Part shown: positions 9,682 to 41,153 of the stretch, piece by piece
Layout of the letters: the number at the start of each line of letters is the position of its first letter
How positions within the stretch are numbered: position 1 is the first letter of the stretch
Assembly: GCA_017508665.1 (NCBI GenBank)
Contig: JAFVYL010000041.1
Span: 1 to 41,153, forward strand
Origin: Clostridia bacterium
GTDB lineage: Bacteria > Bacillota > Clostridia > Oscillospirales > CAG-272
Length of the DNA stretch: 41,153 nucleotides
Direction of reading: 5' to 3'
The notes under the pieces: model-generated
Seen by the model: only the letters and a program-made list of their open reading frames with translations
The model's database searches: none
What the model was told of the DNA's origin: nothing
Made by a program: the position numbers and the translations under genes

Positions 9682-11361
9682 ATGAAAAACGAATTCTTTG
9701 ATAAAGAAAAAGAAGTTATACTCACAGACCTTAGTGATGAAAATATCGAGCCTGCACCCCTTGAGGCGAGTGAGGAGATACTCCTTGAGACCGGACTTGA
9801 TTCGGAGTTCCTTAGCGAAGAGACTTTTACCAATGATGATATTCCTTACGTCGAGGAGTCATCCGATACCGAGATACTCGATGAGATAGGTGAGGGCTTG
9901 CTTGTTGAGGATGAGCTTGACGAGATGGAGATAGTCTCCGAATACGAATACAGCGAGGAAGAGGAAACCGAGCCTATGGTCTCCGCAGAGGAAAGCGCGG
10001 AGAGGGAGTTTGGTAGGATTACCGAGCTTATCGAAAATAAAAAATATGCAGAGCTTAAGGCTTTGCTTGGTGAAATACCGCCAATAGATTTGGCAGAGGC
10101 GTTTTCTGAGGTCGAGCCTAAATACCATGCTGTCATTTTAAGACTGCTTGGCAAGGAGGCTGCTGCAGACGTCTTTGTCGAACTTGATACGGATACTCAG
10201 AGAGTGCTCATTGAGAGCTTCTCAGACCGCGAGCTTGCGGCAATTCTCGAGGAGATGTACCTCGACGATACCGTAGATATCATCGAAGAGATGCCTGCGG
10301 CTGTAGTAAAGAGAATTATCAAGTCATCGAGCAAGGATGACAGAGAGATGATAAACCGTCTGCTACTTTTCGATAAGGATACGGCAGGCGCGATAATGAC
10401 TACCGAGTACGTTCGTCTTATCCCTGAGATGACCGTGGGTGAAGCGCTTGATCATATCAAAGCGGTCGCTATAGATAAGGAAACAATATACACGTGTTAC
10501 GTTACAGACAGAAAAAGGCATTTGCTGGGTATCGTTACCGCAAAGGATATGCTTCTCAATGACCGTGACGTGACGCTTGAGAGTATAATGGAAGAGAACG
10601 TGGTGTTCTCGCGCACCTCGGACGATAAGGAGGAGGTTGCGCTGCTCTTCGACAGATACGGCTTTTTGGCACTGCCTGTTGTAGACAGTGAGTGCAGACT
10701 TGTCGGTATAGTCACAGTCGATGACGCTATGGACGTCATTAGAGAGGAGACTGAAGAGGACTTTGCTAAGATGGCAGGTATGACCCCCACCGAGACTACC
10801 TACCTGAAGACTTCTGCATTTGATTTCCTTAAGGCAAGACTTCCGTGGCTATTGCTTCTTATGTTCTCTGCGACGGTATCCACGGCTATCCTTACCATTT
10901 TTGAGGATGCTCTTTCGGCCGCTCTTGTTCTCTTCGTGCCTATGATAATGGGTACGGGCGGTAACTCCGGCGGACAGTCATCGGTAACCGTTATACGTAG
11001 CCTCTCTCTCGGTGAGATAGAGTTCAAGGATCTGTTTAGGGTAATGCGAAAGGAATTGACTGTCGGTATTTTAGCCGGCATCTTGGTAGGTATTGCCACA
11101 TTCCTAAAGGTCGTTCTTATTGACAGCCTCATTCTTGGCAACCCCGACGTATCTATGCTCGTCGCCCTTGCGGTGGCAGTGTCTCTTGCACTTACCATTA
11201 TATTTGCCAAGCTTATAGGCGCGGCGCTCCCCATTCTTGCCAAGAAGCTTGGATTTGACCCTGCTGTTATGGCATCTCCATTTATCACTACGCTTGTTGA
11301 CGCGGCATCTCTGCTTATATACTTTGTGATTGCCGCTGAGGTATTTGCTCTGCGCGTGTGA
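9682..11361 (+). CDS. mgtE: Magnesium transporter MgtE
   Basis: 559 residues. The first ~110 are very acidic and unusually long, then comes the MgtE N domain (~112-240, FGRITELIENKKYAELKALL...), a tandem CBS pair (~240-365, TTEYVRLIPEMTVGEAL and GIVTVDDAMDVI), and five membrane helices (~375-559). Diagnostic motifs are MGTGGNSGGQSSVTVIRSLS and the last-helix TTLVDAASLLIYF, whose Asp matches the pore Mg2+ ligand in structurally known MgtE. MgtE is a Mg2+ channel whose cytoplasmic N and CBS domains bind Mg2+ and close the pore. Start ATG follows AAGGAAGGG. The acidic extension could be an additional divalent-cation sensor, but that is speculation. It has its own promoter and leader, and the next gene is another cation transporter. 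Confidence 0.95.
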   Translation: MKNEFFDKEKEVILTDLSDENIEPAPLEASEEILLETGLDSEFLSEETFTNDDIPYVEESSDTEILDEIGEGLLVEDELDEMEIVSEYEYSEEEETEPMVSAEESAEREFGRITELIENKKYAELKALLGEIPPIDLAEAFSEVEPKYHAVILRLLGKEAAADVFVELDTDTQRVLIESFSDRELAAILEEMYLDDTVDIIEEMPAAVVKRIIKSSSKDDREMINRLLLFDKDTAGAIMTTEYVRLIPEMTVGEALDHIKAVAIDKETIYTCYVTDRKRHLLGIVTAKDMLLNDRDVTLESIMEENVVFSRTSDDKEEVALLFDRYGFLALPVVDSECRLVGIVTVDDAMDVIREETEEDFAKMAGMTPTETTYLKTSAFDFLKARLPWLLLLMFSATVSTAILTIFEDALSAALVLFVPMIMGTGGNSGGQSSVTVIRSLSLGEIEFKDLFRVMRKELTVGILAGILVGIATFLKVVLIDSLILGNPDVSMLVALAVAVSLALTIIFAKLIGAALPILAKKLGFDPAVMASPFITTLVDAASLLIYFVIAAEVFALRV

Positions 11362-32303: not shown

Positions 32304-35300
32304 ATGAAAAAGGTTTCTTTGTTGATCTTCGTATCACTGATCCTTTTACTCGCATTCACGTCTTGTAGCATCATCTTCGGCCCCTCTGAGGACCCGAAGC
32401 CCGAGCACGAGCATGAATGGACTGAAGCTACATGTGAAGCACCTAAGACTTGTGCTACATGTGGTGATGTTGAGGGCGCGGCTCTCGGCCATGATTGGGC
32501 TGAGGCTACTTGTACCGCTCCCAAGACTTGTAAGACTTGCGAGAAGACTGAGGGTGAAGCTCTTGGTCACGATTGGGCAGCTGCAGATTGCACTACTCCC
32601 AAGACTTGTAAGACTTGCGGCGAGACCGATGGCGCAGCTCTCGGTCATAACTGGGACGATGCAACTTGCACCGATCCTAAGACTTGTAAAACTTGCGGCG
32701 CTACAGAGGGCGAAGCAAAAGGCCATACTTGGTCTGATCCCACCTGTACCGCTCCTAAGACCTGTACCGCTTGTGGCGCAACCGAGGGCGCAGCTCTTGG
32801 CCACACCGAGGAAGTAGTTCCCGGTAAGGCTGCCACCTGTACTGCTACCGGTCTTACCGAAGGCAAGAAGTGCTCCGTTTGCGGAGAGACACTTGTTGCT
32901 CAGGAAATAATTCCTGTGTTGGACCACACCGAGGAAGTAGTTCCCGGTAAGGATGCAACCTGTACCGAATCCGGTCTCACCGAAGGTAAGAAGTGCTCCG
33001 TTTGTGGCGAGACTATCGTAGCTCAGACTGAAATTCCTAAACTCGGTCACACCGAGGAGACTCTTGAGGCTGTAGATGCAACTTGTACCTCTACCGGTCT
33101 CACCGAAGGTAAGAAGTGCTCCGTTTGCGGAGAGATACTTGTTGCTCAGGAAACCATCCCTGCTCTCGACCACATTCCTATGGAAGCCGGCGAAGAGAAC
33201 AGAGTAGAGCCCTCTTGTAAGGCTCCCGGCGGATATGACACTGTTGTAAGATGCTTCATCTGTGACGGTATCATTTCTTCCGTACATACCGAGCTTGCTC
33301 AGCTTGAGCACGTTTTCGGCGAATACGTTTACAACAACGATGCAACCTGTGAAAACGACGGTACCGAGACTGCCACCTGTACTCTTCTTGTATGTGGCGG
33401 CGTTCAGGATACTCGCGTTAAGGAAGGCACCAAGCTTGGTCACGAGATGCCTGCTGATGCAGTATGTGGCGAGCATTGGAACTGCGTAAGATTCGACGAG
33501 TGCGGATACACCTCTCCCGAGCCTCTCGCTCACGACTATGCAGATGCTACCTGTCAGGTTCTCGCAACCTGTAAGAACTGTGGCGCGACCACCGGCGAGC
33601 TTGCTCCCTGTGTTCCCGGCGCAGCAGTAGAAGAGAATCGTGTAGCTCCCCAGTGTGAGGTTGCAGGTTCTTACGATCTCGTTACCTACTGTACTGTTTG
33701 TGGTGCTGAATGCTCCAGAGAAGCTCAGACTATTGATGCTACCGGACATAAGATGGCTCCCGCTACCTGTGACGCTCCTTCCACTTGTGAGAACGGATGC
33801 GGCAAGACCGAGGGCGAGGCTATTGCTAACCACACTCCCGTTGCTACATTGTTTGACGGTGTACTCACCTACAAGTGTACTACTTGTGATGACTCCTTCA
33901 CTACCGAGCAGCTCATTACTTATGTTGGTAACGATAAGGCGGATCTCTTCTTCACTAAGAACGGTGATCCTACAGTATCTATAGTAGACGGTGCGTACTA
34001 CATCCAGGCAGGTGAGGTAAGATCTCAGTACATGATCTACGGTCCTTCCAACGATAGAAACCACCCCAACACTATGACCGGTTGGAATAGCACCAACGAG
34101 TCCTTCGGTGTATTCTCCTTCCGTATTCAGCTTGGTAATATCACCGAGCATGTGCGCTTCATCGTTATGTCCTCCCGTAACAATCCCAACTGGGATGCTA
34201 ACAAGCTTCCCGACGCAGGCGATGGTTGGAGCGGCAACTCTCTTGACTTGCTCTCTATTACTCCCAACGGTGATGGAACATTCGAGATCGCTGGCAGAAA
34301 TATAACCTCTAACACCTTCGCTACCGTTTCCGGTGATGAGTGGGTTGACGTTAAGATGTTCATGCAGATCACTACAGAAGGCCTCTTCACTGTCAGCTAC
34401 TACATCGACGGCGAGTTTATGAACACTTACACAAGAGATCTTCTTGATCCCGCAACTACTCAGACAATCAAGAATCTCGACATTAACAACTTCTACATTT
34501 GCGGCTGGACTGCTCCCGGCACCGGCTTTGCAATTGACGATATGTACTTCGGTTATGCTAAGAACCAGGAATGGCTCTTCGACGAGCACGAGCACAGATG
34601 GGCAGACGCTGACTGCGAATCTCCTAAGCACTGTACCGCTTGTGGCCTTACCGAAGGCTCCGCTCTCGGTCACACCGAGGCAACCAGAAACGAGAACGTT
34701 GTAGCTCCTGACTGTGTAAACACAGGTTCTCACGACGTAGTTACATACTGTACCGTATGTAATAAGGAACTTGGTAGAGAGACCGTTGTTGATGCAGCTC
34801 TCGGCCACACTCCCGGCGAGGTTGTAATTGAAAACAACGTAGATCCTACCTGCGTACTTGACGGTAAGTATGACGAAGTTCAGTACTGTACCGTATGTAC
34901 CAAGGAAGCTAACAGAAAGACCGTTACTGTTCCCGCTACCGGACACACAGAAGTAGCAGTTCCCGGTAAGGATGCAACCTGTACCGAACCCGGTCTTACC
35001 GAGGGTAAGGTTTGTTCCGTTTGTGACGCAACTCTTGTTGCACAGGAAGTAATTCCCGCTAAGGGACATACAGAAGAAGTAGTTCCCGGTAAGGACGCTA
35101 CCTGTACCGCTACCGGTCTCACCGAAGGCAAGGTTTGTTCCGTTTGTGACGCAACTCTTGTTGCACAGGTTGAGATTCCCGTAGTAGCTCATACCTATGA
35201 CAATGACGAAGATGCTGATTGTAACGTTTGCGGATACACCCGTGACGTAGCATGTACGCATGAAAACACCACTACCCTTGATGCTGTAGCAGCTACTTGT

Positions 35301-38300
35301 ACCGCTACCGGTCTTACCGAGGGTAAGAAGTGTAATGACTGTGGCGAAACTATCACCGCTCAGGAAGTAGTTCCCGCACTCGGTCACCTTAATGACATAA
35401 CCCTTGATGCTGTAGCAGCTACTTGTACCGCTACCGGTCTTACCGAGGGTGTTAAGTGCTCCAGATGTGAAGAAACCACCACTGCTCAGGTAGAGGTTCC
35501 CGCACTCGGTCACCTTAACGACGTAACCATTCCCGCTGTGGATGCTACTTGTACCGCTACCGGTCTTACCGCAGGTATTAAGTGCTCCAGATGTGGTGAA
35601 ACCACTACCGCTCAGACTGAGGTTGCAGCGCTTGGTCACTCCTTCAACAACTATGTTAAGGATAACAACGCTACCTGTCTTGCTGACGGTACTAAGACCT
35701 CTAAGTGCGACCGTTGTGATGTAACTGATTCCATCACCGACGAGGGCACTAAGCTCGATCATACTCCCGGCGAGGCAGTTAAGGAAAACGTTGTAGCTCC
35801 TACTTGCTCCGTTAAGGGTAGCCACGACGAGGTTGTTAACTGCTCTGCATGTGGCACTGAGCTCTCCAGAACTACCGTTGAGGATGCAACTCTCGCTCAC
35901 ACCTGGTCCGGCGCACCTACCTGCGTATCCGGTAAGACCTGTACCGTTTGCGGCGCATCCGATCCTCAGCTCAATCCTAACGGACATAACCTCCAGGCTA
36001 CACACGATGGCGGCAAGCTCTTCTACGCTTGTCAGCTTTGTGACTACAGATTCGATGTTGAAACCTTCGTATACCACGACGGTAGCAACGCAAGTCTTCC
36101 CGGCTCCAATTACGTCGGCGGAAACTCCAAGTACAACAATGGTACTAACAATTACGCTTCCAATGGCGAATACGTTTACGCTATTACCGACATAGACGCA
36201 GCTGTTGACACCGACTCTCAGATGCAGCTCTGGGTACCCGGTATTAAGGACGGCAACGGCACCTTCAAGGGCTTCAGCCTTAATAACGCTGCAGTAGGTG
36301 CACTCTCTCTTAAGACCAAGCTTAGTCTTACTAACGCTGCTGATGCATTTACTCTTAAGCTCGTTGAGAGCGGCTGGGGTGCAGCAGGATGTATCGACAT
36401 CAACCTGCTTTCATTCACTCCCGTATTCGACGCTAATAAGACAACCTTCCAGGGTAAGATCAACGTTTACGGCTACAGCAACGTTGCAGGCGATAACGGC
36501 CAAACTCTTCTCACAACTCTTACAGTAGATGCTGAGAACTGGACTGAGTGGGTAGACATCAAGGTTATGCTCACTATGAATACCGAGACCGGTAACCTCG
36601 ACGCACTCTACTATATCAACGGTGCGTTCGTACACGCAGGTACCAAGAAGGTTACTACTACCGGACAGTCTATTTGTTCCGTATACGCTAACCTTAACGC
36701 TTGGAACAAGGGCACCGGTGTAATGCTCGATGACATCGCTTTCGGTTACACCGCTCATAGACACGACCTTGTTCCCGAGGTTATAAACGGTGTTGTTGTA
36801 TATGCATGTGATTGCGGTACTACCTTCCAGCTCACAGAATACCGTGAGTGGAACGGCGACGGCAATGATTCCAACTTCTCTCACTCTGCTAACGGTAAGT
36901 GGAACACCGTATATGAGGACGGCGCGTTCGGCTTCATGTTCCAGCCTGTAACAGAATCCGATTGGAAGAATTACAACGGTTTAGGCGGCCAGATGCAGCC
37001 TTGGCTCCCCGATAGTCAAAGAAATCAGCACACTCTTCCCGACTTCTCTTGCGCAAGCAACGCAGTTGGCGTTATCGCCTTCGACATAAAGACCAGCATG
37101 GCAAGCTGTGAAACTGCTCAGAGCAATCTCGGTCTTGGTGTCGGTAAGCCCAGAAACGCTTCTGACTGGAATGACGGTGGCTCTTGGACCGATGACTTCA
37201 TGACTATTCTTACAATTAGTGGATACAATGAAGCAGGTATCCAAGTTAAGGGCGGTGTTAACAGCGGACTTCAGCTTGCTACCATTCCTGCAGCAGAAAA
37301 CGGTTGGTCCGAGTGGTTCAACGTTATGATCGTTATCGACCTTGACGTTGATGGCACTATGACTACTTATTACTACATCAACGGTGCACTTACAGGCACT
37401 GATACCAGAAATCTTGGCACACCTGCAGCTGACGGCAGATACCTTAATCCTCAGAAGATTGAGGCATTCCAGCTCTCCGGTTGGACCTATGCAGCTGAGA
37501 CCGGTGTTATGCTTGATAACATGTACTTCGGTTACACCGCTAACGGTCACAACACTCTTGACGGACAGAGACACCAGCTCACCGAGACTACCTGTGGCGA
37601 GAAGTCCACTTGTACATGTGGCTGGAGTGGCTACACTGTGGCTCACACCTTCGAAAGCGCATGTTCTCCCGTATGTAGCGAATGCGGACTTGCAAATCAT
37701 GCTCCCGCTACTCACGCATCTCTCACTACCGCAGTTGTAGACGGCAAGGTAACTTATACCTGCTCCGACTGTAACTACTACTATGCAGCTGATAACCACG
37801 TTCTCTACTACGACGGCAATTCTGAGATCGGCGTATTCGCTAAGAATGGCGATATGGTCAGCGAAGTTGTAGACGGCGTTAACCACGTTTACCTTAAGGA
37901 TACCGACGGTAATCATTTTGCTGCAAACGGCGACCAGTATATGATGTGGGTTCCTTCCCAGTCTACTCCCGCCGAGTTCGACGGCTTCACCTGCGCTAAC
38001 AACGCTTTGGGCTTTGTTTCCTTCAAGATCAACGCTTACACCGACTCCTCAACAGGCATTGAGTTCAAGGTTAACGATGCAAGAGGCACATCCGCCTTCG
38101 ACTGGTCTAAGACCTCAGTTGGTATCTTTAAAATCATGCCCGTTACCTCTGATAGCCAGACTACCGTTAATATCACAGGTCTCAACGGTGCCGCTCTCAC
38201 CACTCTTACTCTCCCCGAGGGTAGCAAGTGGACCGGTTGGCTTGACGTTGTAATTCTCATCAAGCTTTCTGACAGCAATATGATGTCTGTTGATTATTAC

Positions 38301-39596
38301 ATCAACGGTCAGTACGTTGGCAACCTTACCAACAGTATGCTCATCAACACCAACAAGATCAGTTCTCTCTACCTCAACGGTTACACCAAGGGTGAGGGCA
38401 CAGGTTACTACCTTGATGACGTTGCATTCGGTTACACTCTCGGCGGTATGCACGAGGTTATTCCTGCCGAAGAGCCCATCTACAAGAATGAAATAGCTAA
38501 GGAAGAAGTTACTAATGAGCTTCTTACCGCTATCGTAACCAATAAGATCAAGCAGTGGGATCAGTCCGATGATCACAACGTTCACACCGGTACTCCCGTA
38601 TACGTAGTTGCTGATATGAACGGCGAGGATGTTCAGGCTCTTTACTTCTCCAAGACTACTCCTTGGGTAGGCGACGAGGGCGAGCAGTTCTCCGAGTTCA
38701 GATTCGACGTTGACGGTTCCAAGAAAGCTGCTTCCATTTCCTTCGATTACCTTGCAAAGGGTACCGTAGAGACCAATGACAGATATGAGTTCACCGACCT
38801 TGAGGGCAACAAGTTCTTCGCTGACGCTTACGTTCAGATCAAGACTCCCGCTACTCATCCCGGCGCAGGTGACAACTATCCCGAGCTTTCCGGAACAGAG
38901 CTCACTCTCGACGGTGAATGGCACACCATGACCTACACCTTCGCAGAGCCCCTTGAGATCATCAACATTCTCTTCAACCTCTATCACTTCCAGGGCGAGC
39001 TCCTTGTAGCTAACCTTGAGGTAGAGTTTGCTGCAGAGCCCTTCTACAAGAATGAAATAGCTAAGGAAGAAGTTACTAATGAGCTTCTTACCGCTATCGT
39101 AGATTCTAAGTTCAAGCAGTGCGACCAGTGCACCACTGTTAACGCACAGGGCGGTACTCCCGTATACGTAGTTGCTGATAAGAACGGCGAGGACGTTCAG
39201 GCACTCTACGTTTCCAGAACCTACGCTTGGGACGGCACTGAGGCTGAGCAGTTCACTGAGTTCAGATTTGACGTTGTTGGTAAGGCTACCTCCATTACCT
39301 TCGATTACAAGGCAAAGGGTACCGTAGAGACCAATGACAGATATGAGTTCACCGACCTTGAGGGCAACAAGTTCTATGCTGACGCTTACGTTCAGATCAA
39401 GACTCCCGATACTCATCCCGGTGCAGGTGACAACTATCCTGAGCTTTCCGGAACAGAGCTCACTCTCGACGGTGAATGGCACACCATGACCTACACCTTC
39501 GCAGAGCCCACCGATATCATCAACATTCTCTTCAACCTCTATCACTTCCAGGGCGAGCTCCTTGTAGCTAACCTCAACGTGACCTTCGAGGCATAA
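32304..39596 (+). CDS. 2430-residue surface lipoprotein with Cys/His repeat arrays and lectin-like modules
   Basis: The signal peptide MKKVSLLIFVSLILLLAFTS ends at lipobox Cys21. Residues 37-166 are five 26-residue repeats with W and C-x5-C-x2-C-x9-H. Next come three 41-residue repeats (C-x10-C-x2-C-x14-H, TGLTEGKKCSVCGE) and several longer ones. A ~215-residue jelly-roll-like module follows (about 540-755; VSYYIDGEFMNTYTRD, GFAIDDMYFGYAK). A second Cys/His block (about 760-1250), then three more related modules (about 1255-1480, 1515-1745, 1830-2050; YYINGA, LDDIAFGYT), each joined by short Cys-rich linkers. The last ~375 residues are two copies of a 188-residue module. Every Cys/His unit keeps CxxC and a following His, which could bind metal or form disulfides. 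Lectin-like modules suggest glycan binding at the cell surface. No catalytic domain is recognised. It is lipid-anchored at its N-terminus, and codon use suggests good expression. Confidence 0.9.
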   Translation: MKKVSLLIFVSLILLLAFTSCSIIFGPSEDPKPEHEHEWTEATCEAPKTCATCGDVEGAALGHDWAEATCTAPKTCKTCEKTEGEALGHDWAAADCTTPKTCKTCGETDGAALGHNWDDATCTDPKTCKTCGATEGEAKGHTWSDPTCTAPKTCTACGATEGAALGHTEEVVPGKAATCTATGLTEGKKCSVCGETLVAQEIIPVLDHTEEVVPGKDATCTESGLTEGKKCSVCGETIVAQTEIPKLGHTEETLEAVDATCTSTGLTEGKKCSVCGEILVAQETIPALDHIPMEAGEENRVEPSCKAPGGYDTVVRCFICDGIISSVHTELAQLEHVFGEYVYNNDATCENDGTETATCTLLVCGGVQDTRVKEGTKLGHEMPADAVCGEHWNCVRFDECGYTSPEPLAHDYADATCQVLATCKNCGATTGELAPCVPGAAVEENRVAPQCEVAGSYDLVTYCTVCGAECSREAQTIDATGHKMAPATCDAPSTCENGCGKTEGEAIANHTPVATLFDGVLTYKCTTCDDSFTTEQLITYVGNDKADLFFTKNGDPTVSIVDGAYYIQAGEVRSQYMIYGPSNDRNHPNTMTGWNSTNESFGVFSFRIQLGNITEHVRFIVMSSRNNPNWDANKLPDAGDGWSGNSLDLLSITPNGDGTFEIAGRNITSNTFATVSGDEWVDVKMFMQITTEGLFTVSYYIDGEFMNTYTRDLLDPATTQTIKNLDINNFYICGWTAPGTGFAIDDMYFGYAKNQEWLFDEHEHRWADADCESPKHCTACGLTEGSALGHTEATRNENVVAPDCVNTGSHDVVTYCTVCNKELGRETVVDAALGHTPGEVVIENNVDPTCVLDGKYDEVQYCTVCTKEANRKTVTVPATGHTEVAVPGKDATCTEPGLTEGKVCSVCDATLVAQEVIPAKGHTEEVVPGKDATCTATGLTEGKVCSVCDATLVAQVEIPVVAHTYDNDEDADCNVCGYTRDVACTHENTTTLDAVAATCTATGLTEGKKCNDCGETITAQEVVPALGHLNDITLDAVAATCTATGLTEGVKCSRCEETTTAQVEVPALGHLNDVTIPAVDATCTATGLTAGIKCSRCGETTTAQTEVAALGHSFNNYVKDNNATCLADGTKTSKCDRCDVTDSITDEGTKLDHTPGEAVKENVVAPTCSVKGSHDEVVNCSACGTELSRTTVEDATLAHTWSGAPTCVSGKTCTVCGASDPQLNPNGHNLQATHDGGKLFYACQLCDYRFDVETFVYHDGSNASLPGSNYVGGNSKYNNGTNNYASNGEYVYAITDIDAAVDTDSQMQLWVPGIKDGNGTFKGFSLNNAAVGALSLKTKLSLTNAADAFTLKLVESGWGAAGCIDINLLSFTPVFDANKTTFQGKINVYGYSNVAGDNGQTLLTTLTVDAENWTEWVDIKVMLTMNTETGNLDALYYINGAFVHAGTKKVTTTGQSICSVYANLNAWNKGTGVMLDDIAFGYTAHRHDLVPEVINGVVVYACDCGTTFQLTEYREWNGDGNDSNFSHSANGKWNTVYEDGAFGFMFQPVTESDWKNYNGLGGQMQPWLPDSQRNQHTLPDFSCASNAVGVIAFDIKTSMASCETAQSNLGLGVGKPRNASDWNDGGSWTDDFMTILTISGYNEAGIQVKGGVNSGLQLATIPAAENGWSEWFNVMIVIDLDVDGTMTTYYYINGALTGTDTRNLGTPAADGRYLNPQKIEAFQLSGWTYAAETGVMLDNMYFGYTANGHNTLDGQRHQLTETTCGEKSTCTCGWSGYTVAHTFESACSPVCSECGLANHAPATHASLTTAVVDGKVTYTCSDCNYYYAADNHVLYYDGNSEIGVFAKNGDMVSEVVDGVNHVYLKDTDGNHFAANGDQYMMWVPSQSTPAEFDGFTCANNALGFVSFKINAYTDSSTGIEFKVNDARGTSAFDWSKTSVGIFKIMPVTSDSQTTVNITGLNGAALTTLTLPEGSKWTGWLDVVILIKLSDSNMMSVDYYINGQYVGNLTNSMLINTNKISSLYLNGYTKGEGTGYYLDDVAFGYTLGGMHEVIPAEEPIYKNEIAKEEVTNELLTAIVTNKIKQWDQSDDHNVHTGTPVYVVADMNGEDVQALYFSKTTPWVGDEGEQFSEFRFDVDGSKKAASISFDYLAKGTVETNDRYEFTDLEGNKFFADAYVQIKTPATHPGAGDNYPELSGTELTLDGEWHTMTYTFAEPLEIINILFNLYHFQGELLVANLEVEFAAEPFYKNEIAKEEVTNELLTAIVDSKFKQCDQCTTVNAQGGTPVYVVADKNGEDVQALYVSRTYAWDGTEAEQFTEFRFDVVGKATSITFDYKAKGTVETNDRYEFTDLEGNKFYADAYVQIKTPDTHPGAGDNYPELSGTELTLDGEWHTMTYTFAEPTDIINILFNLYHFQGELLVANLNVTFEA
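32412..32801 (+). repeat. 78-bp (26-residue) tandem Cys/His repeat, five units
   Basis: Five consecutive units encode HxWxxATCTxPKTCxTCG then xTEGxALG. Each carries three Cys and, with the next unit's first residue, one His. DNA identity between units is high enough for recombination, but codons differ, so the array is not newly duplicated. Confidence 0.92.
38481..39593 (+). repeat. 564-bp tandem duplication of the C-terminal module
   Basis: The segment starting TACAAGAATGAAATAG at 38481 recurs at 39045, exactly 564 bases later. Long stretches (for example KGTVETNDRYEFTDLEGNKF) are identical in protein and nearly so in DNA; the divergent part lies around the DQSDDHNVHTG / CDQCTTVNAQGG region. 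Confidence 0.93.
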
Positions 39597-39660
39597 GAGA
39601 ATAAAACAAAAATAACCAAACCGAAAGGTTTGATCCTCTACCTTGATAGGTAGATAAGGG

Positions 39661-39690
39661 AAGAGCCCGCGAGAAATCGCGGGCTCTTTT
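39661..39690 (+). terminator. Intrinsic terminator of the giant lipoprotein gene
   Basis: A perfect 12-bp stem AAGAGCCCGCGA / TCGCGGGCTCTT with a GAAA loop, followed by TTTT. Confidence 0.95.
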
Positions 39691-39715
39691 GCGTTTAAAA
39701 TAGGAGAGAAGCGGG

Positions 39716-39958
39716 AAGTGGAAAGTAGAAAGTGGAAAATTTAAAGTTGAAAATGGAAAGTGGAAAAATGAAAGTTGAAAAACAACGTGAGTTAAACGAA
39801 AGGATGGCAAAAAAGGATTTCATTTGGAGTGCAGCCCTCTTATTAGGCTGGAGAAGGCTTGCGAAGGCTTTCACTACGGGAGAGGACTTAATTATGCATT
39901 TTGCAATATGAGTTATGCATTTACGCACCAACTTTCCATTCTCCACTTTTCATTTTAC
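39716..39958. repeat. Degenerate purine heptad tract with an inverted pyrimidine partner
   Basis: 39716-39793 is a run of irregular AAGTGGAAA / AAGTTGAAA units on the plus strand. At 39927-39958 the opposite pattern (ACTTTCCATTCTCCACTTTT) appears, so the two form a loose inverted pair around about 130 bases. No gene is seen in the whole 39691-40040 stretch. Confidence 0.6.
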
Positions 39959-40039
39959 TCTTGCATACTCCTCATTCGTCATACTCGTCGACACAGCCAC
40001 TCGTATGACACCTTCCCCGCAGGAGAAGGCTTAATAAGC

Positions 40040-40080
40040 ACAAAAAAGGATAGAGAACCGAGATTCTCTATCCTTATTAT
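40040..40080. terminator. Bidirectional terminator between the two convergent repeat-protein genes
   Basis: A perfect 12-bp stem AAGGATAGAGAA (40046-40057) / TTCTCTATCCTT (40064-40075). A-rich on the left gives a U-run for the minus-strand gene; ATTATATT follows on the right. Confidence 0.88.
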
Positions 40081-40103
40081 ATTAAATATGTAAAATGATT
40101 TGA

Positions 40104-41153
40104 TTATCTTCTTCTGCGCTTATACCAGGGAGTGGTGGTCGCAGGAGCTGCGAGAGCTATGAGGCAAATGATGATCACGATGACACACGCGCCTACGATA
40201 GCGTATGTAGTGTATGCAGGGGGGAACTGAACCTTTACGAACTCACCCTCTGTGCCACAGGTCTTACAGATCTGCTTTACGATTGCAGCCTTAGGATCGT
40301 CATTGGGATAGAAGTCGTGACCGTGAGGAGCAATTTCGTTGCTCTTTCTGGAAAGCTCTTCGTCACATACTGTACAGTATACTACGGCATCGTACTTGCC
40401 GGTGTTTACACAGTCAGGCTCTACTCTGTTTTCTACAACAGCAGCACCTGCGGTATGTCCGAGTGCGGGGATTTCAACAGACTCTCTGGAGCACTCTCCA
40501 TTACAGTTAATACAGTATACTACGCTATCATAGCTACCGGTATTTACACAGTCGGGCTCAATGCGATTCTCTTCTACAGCCTCGCCGTTAACGTGGGCTC
40601 TAAGTGAACCGTAAGATGCGCCACATCTGGTGCACACTTTCTTGTCAGTACAGGTTGCTACACCTCCGGTGTGACCAAGGGAGGAAATACTTTTCTGAGT
40701 TTTGGAGAGTTGTGCGTTACAATCGGTACAGTAAACTACGCTGTCGTAGCTACCGCGAGTTGTACAGGTGGGCTCAACTATATTCTCCTGAACTGCAGCA
40801 CCTGCAGTATGTCCCTTTGCAGAAACAACGGTAGTATCTCTGTCGAGCTCTACGTCACATACAGAGCAGTAAACTACAGTGTCATAGCTACCGTCAGTTA
40901 CACAATCGGGAGCTATGTTATTCTCGGTTACAGGAGCAGCCTCGGTGTGTCCGAGCTTGGGAACAACGGTAGTATCTCTGTCGAGCTCTTCGTCTCATAC
41001 AGAGCAGTAAACTACGGTGTCATAGCTACCGTCAGTTACACAATCGGGAGCTACGTTATTCTCGGTTACAGGAGCAGCCTCGGTGTGTCCGAGCTTGGGA
41101 ACAACGGTAGTATCTCTGTCGAGCTCTACGTCGCATACAGAGCAGTAAACTAC
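40104..41153 (-). pseudogene. Cys/His-repeat membrane-anchored surface protein, interrupted by TGA; 5' end outside window
   Basis: Read from the right edge, the frame encodes 46-residue units such as HTEAAPVTENNVAPDC then VTDGSYDTVVYCSVC, the same C-xn-C-x2-C-xm-H family as the giant lipoprotein. At 40995-40997 the codon for the last Cys of the CSVC motif is TGA; the units before and after have TGC and TGT there. Beyond the stop the frame continues undisturbed for about 297 codons through three more complete units, a short CTDKKVCTRCGAS unit, and a C-terminal membrane helix (YTTYAIVGACVIVIIICLIA) with the tail YKRRRR. That end suggests anchoring in the membrane with the repeats outside. It may be a true nonsense mutation, a recoded codon, or an assembly error in near-identical repeats. 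GTG codons after the TGA lack good ribosome sites. Confidence 0.7.
40835..41153 (-). repeat. 138-bp tandem repeats, at least two full units plus a partial one
   Basis: TATCTCTGTCGAGCTC recurs at 40835, 40973 and 41111, exactly 138 bases (46 residues) apart. Units are nearly identical; one of the differences creates the TGA at 40995-40997. Confidence 0.93.

Follow-up and report, generated by a model that had tools for sequence, protein, structure and literature searches.

What holds together an apparently exported protein built of units only 26 to 46 residues long, in which little is constant except three Cys and one His? The question is raised by two convergent genes at one end of a contig from a Clostridia bacterium (assembly GCA_017508665.1, contig JAFVYL010000041.1; GTDB order Oscillospirales). 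The window analyzed is the entire contig (C34), 41,153 nucleotides long, and the parent assembly comprises 1.54 Mb and is 63.6% complete. Gene 1, on the plus strand, and gene 2, on the minus strand, encode arrays of these units, which in gene 1 alternate with larger modules. The answer we think likely is that the arrays are metal-stapled beta rods (Zn2+ being the most likely metal) in which neighboring units share each site, and that they serve as spacers. The metal, its identity, the shared site, the rod geometry, the stiffness, and the spacer role are what we infer from patterns in the sequence.

The repeat unit and its ligands

The units fall into three types, with the skeletons H-x6-C-x5-C-x2-C-x9-H (26 residues), H-x11-C-x10-C-x2-C-x14-H (41 residues, or 42 with x12), and H-x14-C-x11-C-x2-C-x15-H (46 residues, with observed lengths of 45 and 46). 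The leading His is that of the preceding unit, the three Cys are called C1, C2, and C3, and the CxxC made by C2 and C3 is the knuckle. An earlier note on this DNA had described such repeats in both genes, and they are confirmed here. Gene 1 has 21 matches to the pattern C-x4..12-CxxC-x7..16-H, well beyond chance, as 1000 shuffles gave a mean of 0.35 and never more than 5; the portion of gene 2 present on the contig has 5, with a shuffle mean of 0.17 and a maximum that likewise reached 5. Only H, C, G, C, C, and H are invariant in the 16 longer-type units of the window. The note's count of exactly three Cys and one His per unit describes most units. It breaks down in last units, which lack C1; in one gene 1 unit, where C436 replaces the His; in a few window knuckles with x1, x3, x4, or x5 spacing instead of x2; and in gene 2, which has a TGA at a knuckle Cys.

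How well are the ligands conserved elsewhere? Two samples were used. The named loci are the best 80 of at least 419 relatives, mostly metagenome-assembled genomes of Clostridia and many of them from ruminants. The held-out set consists of 40 stretches drawn from another 37 genomes of the same order and phylum. None of them has 300 bp in common with the earlier loci at 85% identity, although it was from those loci that the search profile had been made. A profile whose ligand columns are masked finds C in all three Cys columns of 405/405 units and H in the His column of 402/405 (E<1e-6), a count that keeps only units with all four ligand columns aligned and drops partial matches. The masked model finds 672 domains at 1e-3, with the four columns aligned in 441 at 1e-2, 427 at 1e-4, and 405 at 1e-6; this count, like those of compensation and spacing below, also took in loci L002-L008 and L090-L098. 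Among 472 units of the 41-residue type, Leu (410), Thr (440), Gly (459), and Gln (440) are common at positions 5, 6, 8, and 21, though such units had served to retrieve the set, so that position conservation is biased. In the same type (loci L009-L196), the residue directly before C2 is K in 288/472 and H in 118/472 units, and a His there pairs with Asp at -7 (D/H in 118 of 470).

Do these residues bind a metal or form disulfides? Disulfide-stabilized extracellular repeats would suit Cys-rich arrays behind signal peptides, Cys making up 7.4% of residues within arrays versus 1.2% outside them in the same frames. Against this, each unit has an odd number of Cys together with an equally conserved His, and Cys and His stand in for one another. 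Knuckles of the form C-x4/5-H account for 50 of 1558, and the caps that precede many arrays (described below) start with C in 35 and with H in 46 of 81 cases, both figures coming from pattern matching open to C or H alone and not from aligned columns. VKOR was found in 0/40 genomes of the genus (control: rings in 3/14 genomes), and DsbA exceeded the cut-off in 0/40 (control: 8/14); telling the other way, 2/40 have DsbA matches below the cut-off, and DsbB was not sought. The ligand conservation, the Cys/His interchange, and the lack of matches to VKOR and, over the cut-off, to DsbA favor a repeated metal site over disulfides, a preference that the earlier note had reached from the conserved His, and we consider the metal reading likely. 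What is generally known of Cys3His sites, which are typically structural, favors zinc over iron. For a homologous protein, the immunoglobulin A protease (IgAse) of Thomasclavelia ramosa, no disulfides are reported among the observed or predicted structures, and the finding that the protein is monodisperse only with reductant is attributed by the authors to another Cys (PMC12237041). Disulfides as the stabilizing element thus seem improbable.

Array ends and the sharing of sites

If the arrays bind metal, do the four ligands of a site come from one unit? The earlier note placed them so, each unit's C1, C2, C3, and His forming its own zinc site, repeated like beads. Three arrangements were compared. 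Beads should keep C1 and His in the last unit of an array. A site made with the preceding His and the unit's own C1 should keep C1. A site shared between neighbors should let the last unit lose C1 and His and should place two extra ligands before the first unit. The shared-site idea arose from the array ends of the window, which were inspected first.

The ends of arrays in the relatives bear it out in large part. With overlapping frames removed, and with regular expressions that miss some knuckles (e.g., C394/C400 of gene 1), both C1 and His are absent from 50/73 last units versus 14/893 internal units in the named loci, and from 27/32 versus 6/289 in the held-out set, where 0/32 last units keep both. 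Last units without C1 or His still keep their CxxC. Where both ends of an array are resolved (37 named, 21 held-out), shared sites complete the quartet of the last knuckle in 32/37 and 20/21, beads in only 2/37 and 0/21, and the combination of preceding His with own C1 in 5/37 and 2/21. At the other end, a [C/H]x1-3H cap precedes 37/62 first units in the named loci and 19/30 in the held-out set. Similar motifs are found at 44/892 and 15/311 junctions after a unit that bears C1 and at 36/106 (P 5e-17) and 4/25 (P 0.04) after a unit that lacks it. The cap rule is partial, caps being present in most arrays and not in all.

For beads it can be said that every unit offers three Cys and one His, and that all four are present in 295/343 and 142/160 mid-array units and in 31/37 and 16/21 first units. 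Last units speak against them, as does a solitary unit of gene 1, which has the residues HRH and a CDC knuckle but neither C1 nor a following His. A further difficulty is geometric, in that C1 and His move away from the CxxC as the strands lengthen. In 633 of 875 distinct units, the C3-H spacing exceeds the C1-C2 spacing by exactly 4 (38% on average after permutation), the coupled pairs being 5/9, 9/13, 10/14, and 11/15. A hairpin closed by CxxC would show such coupling, with C1 and His close together where it opens, as much as about 11 residues away from the knuckle.

Covariation gives a compatible picture. Call the stretch between the preceding His and C1 strand A, that between C1 and the knuckle strand B, and that between the knuckle and the unit's own His strand C. 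Among 470 units of the 41-residue type, the leading covarying pairs lie in antiparallel A-B and B-C registers, and position -11, beside the preceding His, covaries with position 13, inside the following knuckle. The top 12 pairs include 7 A-B and 3 B-C in this type (either band, P 1.2e-6), 1 and 4 in B=9 units (P 0.05), and 4 and 3 in B=11 units (P 0.0008). The bands were fixed after the 41-residue result had been seen, which makes B=9 and B=11 the fairer test, and phylogeny was corrected only by weighting. At the level of sequence, spacing and covariation mostly agree with a three-stranded sheet per unit and suggest that C1 and His lie at the opposite end from their own CxxC. Together with the last units, they oppose the placing of all four ligands within one unit; the site is probably shifted by one unit, and separate beads are an unlikely arrangement.

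How would such a rod be put together? The units, the cap and terminus rule, the coupled spacing, the covariation, and the signal peptide of gene 1 are read directly from the sequence. On the proposed model, each unit would be a three-stranded up-and-down sheet in which strands A and C run upward and strand B, between them, leads down to the knuckle. This would bring C1 and His of a unit n to its upper end and leave its CxxC at the lower one. The next unit, n+1, would add its own CxxC to the C1 and His of unit n, and the four residues would form one tetrahedral Cys3His site that locks the two adjoining units. The CxxC of the first unit would be completed by a [C/H]-x-H cap in most, not all, arrays, while the last unit would present its CxxC and have no need of C1 and His, which are usually lost. 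The setting would presumably be an anaerobic gut cell, of a genus in whose genomes neither VKOR nor a clear DsbA turned up.

Several counts weigh against a shared site. In the named loci, both C1 and His persist in 4/73 last units, C1 by itself in 9, and a His by itself in 10. This model completes first knuckles in only 25/37 and 13/21, and the module ahead of some first units supplies just one His. Over all knuckles, completeness is 362/417 and 174/202 for shared sites versus 328/417 and 158/202 for sites within a unit, so modest an advantage that the choice rests on the array ends. A His at position C2-3 had been predicted to replace a lost C1, and this was not seen in the 30 units that have one: 26/30 have their own C1 and 29/30 follow a C1-bearing unit, compared with 834/962 and 889/962 of the others. 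A looser, first-pass count, in which antisense frames and arrays running on in C-x5-H knuckles were still mixed, did point toward such compensation (30/111 versus 105/1050). The A-B band is not enriched in B=9 units (1/12, P 0.65). Finally, two of the three scripted last units in the window have a His within the scan range (H1258 and H1832), which we read as belonging to the following module.

The arrays and modules of the window

The features of the two genes are as follows.

32304..39596, plus strand: gene 1, array protein of 2430 aa with a lipoprotein-type signal, by sequence pattern, at its N terminus (MKKVSLLIFVSLILLLAFTSC)
32406..32414, plus strand: N-terminal HEH (H35, H37) ahead of array 1, a putative cap judging by the array-end counts
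32406..33908, plus strand: array 1, 15 knuckles; 26-residue units first, then 41 and 46
33906..34574, plus strand: module 1 of four related modules of ~230 aa
34587..36053, plus strand: array 2, HEH cap (H762, H764) and 13 knuckles, all three unit types
36051..36767, plus strand: module 2
36756..36815, plus strand: solitary unit, HRH cap (H1485, H1487) and CDC knuckle (C1502, C1504)
36825..37553, plus strand: module 3
37581..37787, plus strand: array 3, three knuckles (1770, 1791, 1820)
37785..38459, plus strand: module 4
38490..39593, plus strand: two C-terminal modules of ~185 aa each
40104..41153, minus strand: gene 2, 46-residue units and one 26-residue unit; its 3' end is at 40104 and its 5' part lies past the contig end at 41153
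40995..40997, minus strand: in-frame TGA where the second knuckle Cys of a gene 2 unit is expected

Gene 1 thus carries three arrays and one solitary unit with 32 knuckles in total, a tally of 31 of the 32 scripted entries (CDQC at 2273 was discarded as a nonunit) plus one found by eye, the C-x5-C of C394/C400, which joins 14 scripted knuckles in array 1. The final unit of array 1 (CTTC, 525) has lost both C1 and His, and that of array 2 (CQLC, 1243) lacks C1, as does the unit at C973, which has C984-x-H986 in its stead. Ahead of array 3 are H1748 and H1757, spaced too widely for a cap. The final unit of gene 2, CKTC, has neither C1 nor His and is followed by a hydrophobic helix and an RRRR tail. 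The TGA of gene 2 sits in a 138-bp tandem repeat, 96% identical, at the contig end. Selenocysteine was considered for it and set aside: no second in-array stop of this kind occurs in the loci scanned, which makes an assembly error or a true nonsense codon likelier.

What are the modules between the arrays? The four of ~230 aa (33906-38459, plus strand) have YYI.G and TG...D...FGY-like motifs in common and have relatives elsewhere in the same genome, and the two C-terminal modules are identical at 152 of 183 aligned residues. The earlier note called such modules lectin-like, which the searches do not support: the nonarray modules of gene 1 have no Pfam match above the cut-off (scanned up to E 5) and no significant PDB sequence match (best E 0.37). 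PADLOC has no match for gene 1. As a whole, gene 1 matches no Pfam or NCBIfam family above the cut-off. Gene 2 was scanned in Pfam only, where its part at 40107-40994 (minus strand) reaches DUF4625 with 29.6 bits versus a cut-off of 27, over only model positions 83-128 of 131, that is, one unit.

Relatives, partners, and a possible role

No family above the cut-off covers the arrays of 19 relatives searched in Pfam or of 4 searched in NCBIfam. In one locus (L031), DUF4907 and A24_N_bact exceed the cut-off, with best stretches of 15 and 23 residues, none significant alone. None of the libraries searched has a family named for this repeat, despite its wide spread in the genus and order. It is found in 36/40 genomes of the genus (profile A2, E<=1e-3), 78/147 of the order, and 7/199 of the phylum (both profile A3, E<=1e-6), the window's own genome included in each. 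The genes that carry it are often kilobases long. Viral contigs gave 20 pattern matches, none confirmed.

The sole significant PDB sequence match to the array profile A3 is the T. ramosa IgAse (9QA6; E 2.6e-9), which the single-unit profile A2 reaches with E 0.15 only. A search for earlier descriptions of the repeat turned up only two relevant papers, both on IgAse, with most subscription journals outside its coverage. For the C-terminal domains ZBD1 and ZBD2 of this protein, zinc was predicted at subdomain interfaces in 2025, the sites being described as predicted and pending validation (PMC12237041). A zinc reading has therefore been published for two short IgAse domains; arrays are not discussed in the parts of that paper that concern them (PMC12237041). 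Besides their detectable homology to the arrays, these domains are modeled with three-stranded up-and-down subdomains, the form proposed here for the units, and their predicted sites, made of 2 His + 2 Cys or of 3 Cys + 1 His, lie between subdomains, as they would in the arrays (PMC12237041). In IgAse, too, the residues HTH open the repeat region and the final subdomain lacks the upstream Cys. The differences are of size (two or three subdomains versus arrays of up to 54 units here) and of ligands (4/5 IgAse sites are His2Cys2 versus Cys3His in the arrays). The fold is not unprecedented, then, given these modeled domains, and sharing of ligands between neighbors as in them would fit the terminus rule and the partial cap rule. 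If the model is true, the modeled zinc domains of IgAse become part of a wide family.

CxxCG knuckles in beta hairpins are also known from TFIIS-type zinc ribbons and rubredoxin-like proteins. Unlike those, the arrays have one CxxC per unit, and the two other ligands would come from another unit. Periscope Proteins offer a different likeness, being single-chain surface tandem repeats that would act as rods, as the arrays would (PMC9704523). The 138-bp unit, at 96%, also recalls the near-identical DNA repeats of those proteins (PMC9704523). Their tandem repeats are highly identical and, in the published search, longer than 50 residues (PMC9704523), whereas the units here are 26-46 aa with DNA matches of 73-96%. 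Array units are mostly diverged and, in contrast to Periscope domains, would not be expected to fold alone, since each site would be shared between units; a metal staple is not described for Periscope Proteins in the relevant parts of that source (PMC9704523).

What might the arrays do? At most 49 of the 53 array frames that are complete in their locus look exported, by a crude pattern with false positives (e.g., the gene 2 fragment, L032, and L062) and with at least 2 of the 53 frames being antisense shadows; 7/53 end in a hydrophobic helix. Partners detected by Pfam in 19 relatives include Endonuclease_1, Exo_endo_phos, LRR_5, dockerin, cohesin, and SLH, as well as choline-binding repeats, Big_2/Big_3, Glug, Flg_new, and a transglutaminase-like domain. 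One repeat joined to so many different modules favors a stalk or spacer over metal scavenging. The earlier note had raised both. In the scavenging alternative, the array would gather zinc for uptake or starve competitors of it, for which the ~32 potential sites of gene 1 alone might be cited; it is opposed by the typically structural nature of Cys3His sites and by the varied partners, and MgtE (9682-11361) lies >20 kb distant, zinc uptake genes not having been sought. We give scavenging little credence.

The stalk of the earlier note fares better, while its rigidity is a further step. According to the IgAse authors, BB8 with its ZBDs may act as a spacer or a hinge (PMC12237041), much as a spacer role is favored for the arrays. 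Set against stiffness is the flexibility that both IgAse papers, in their solution scattering, see around these C-terminal domains. Rigidity would hold at most within one array. The 28 units of arrays 1 and 2 would span several tens of nanometers, extrapolating from a model with a published ~110 A for three subdomains, and such a stiff spacer would keep the attached modules (the four of ~230 aa and the two at the C terminus) off the cell. Could the surface of the array instead bind a protein or glycan ligand, with metal only stabilizing the fold? Protein binding is named as an alternative for the IgAse domains (PMC12237041), and the common Leu, Thr, Gly, and Gln of the 41-residue type could form such a surface, or could belong to the sheet itself. 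Most other positions are variable and the unit types differ, and we hold ligand binding to be highly improbable.

Should the metal-stapled rod prove true, anaerobes would have a route to stiff surface spacers without disulfides. The cap, the shared quartet, and the terminal CxxC rule make the architecture readable from sequence and allow sharp tests of stoichiometry. A bolder extension is that in this exported, lineage-rich class of repeat no unit is a complete domain, every joint is a shared metal site, and the rod is continuous, so that its stiffness or length could track gut zinc, for example when a host withholds zinc; this is a doubtful proposition for now.

Among minor observations, arrays are fused to an Endonuclease I domain in one relative (L083:13-10527) and to an Exo_endo_phos domain in another (L067:2380-11013). 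Antisense to gene 1 runs an open frame of 1243 aa (32346-36077, minus strand), a shadow of the repeats, with smaller shadow frames at 36981-37916 and 38115-39545. A minisatellite with AAGTGGA-like units (39716-39781) separates the two convergent genes. Truncated at the opposite end of the contig (2-4660, plus strand) is a 1552-aa protein that has F5/8 type C modules as well as an Ig-like match.

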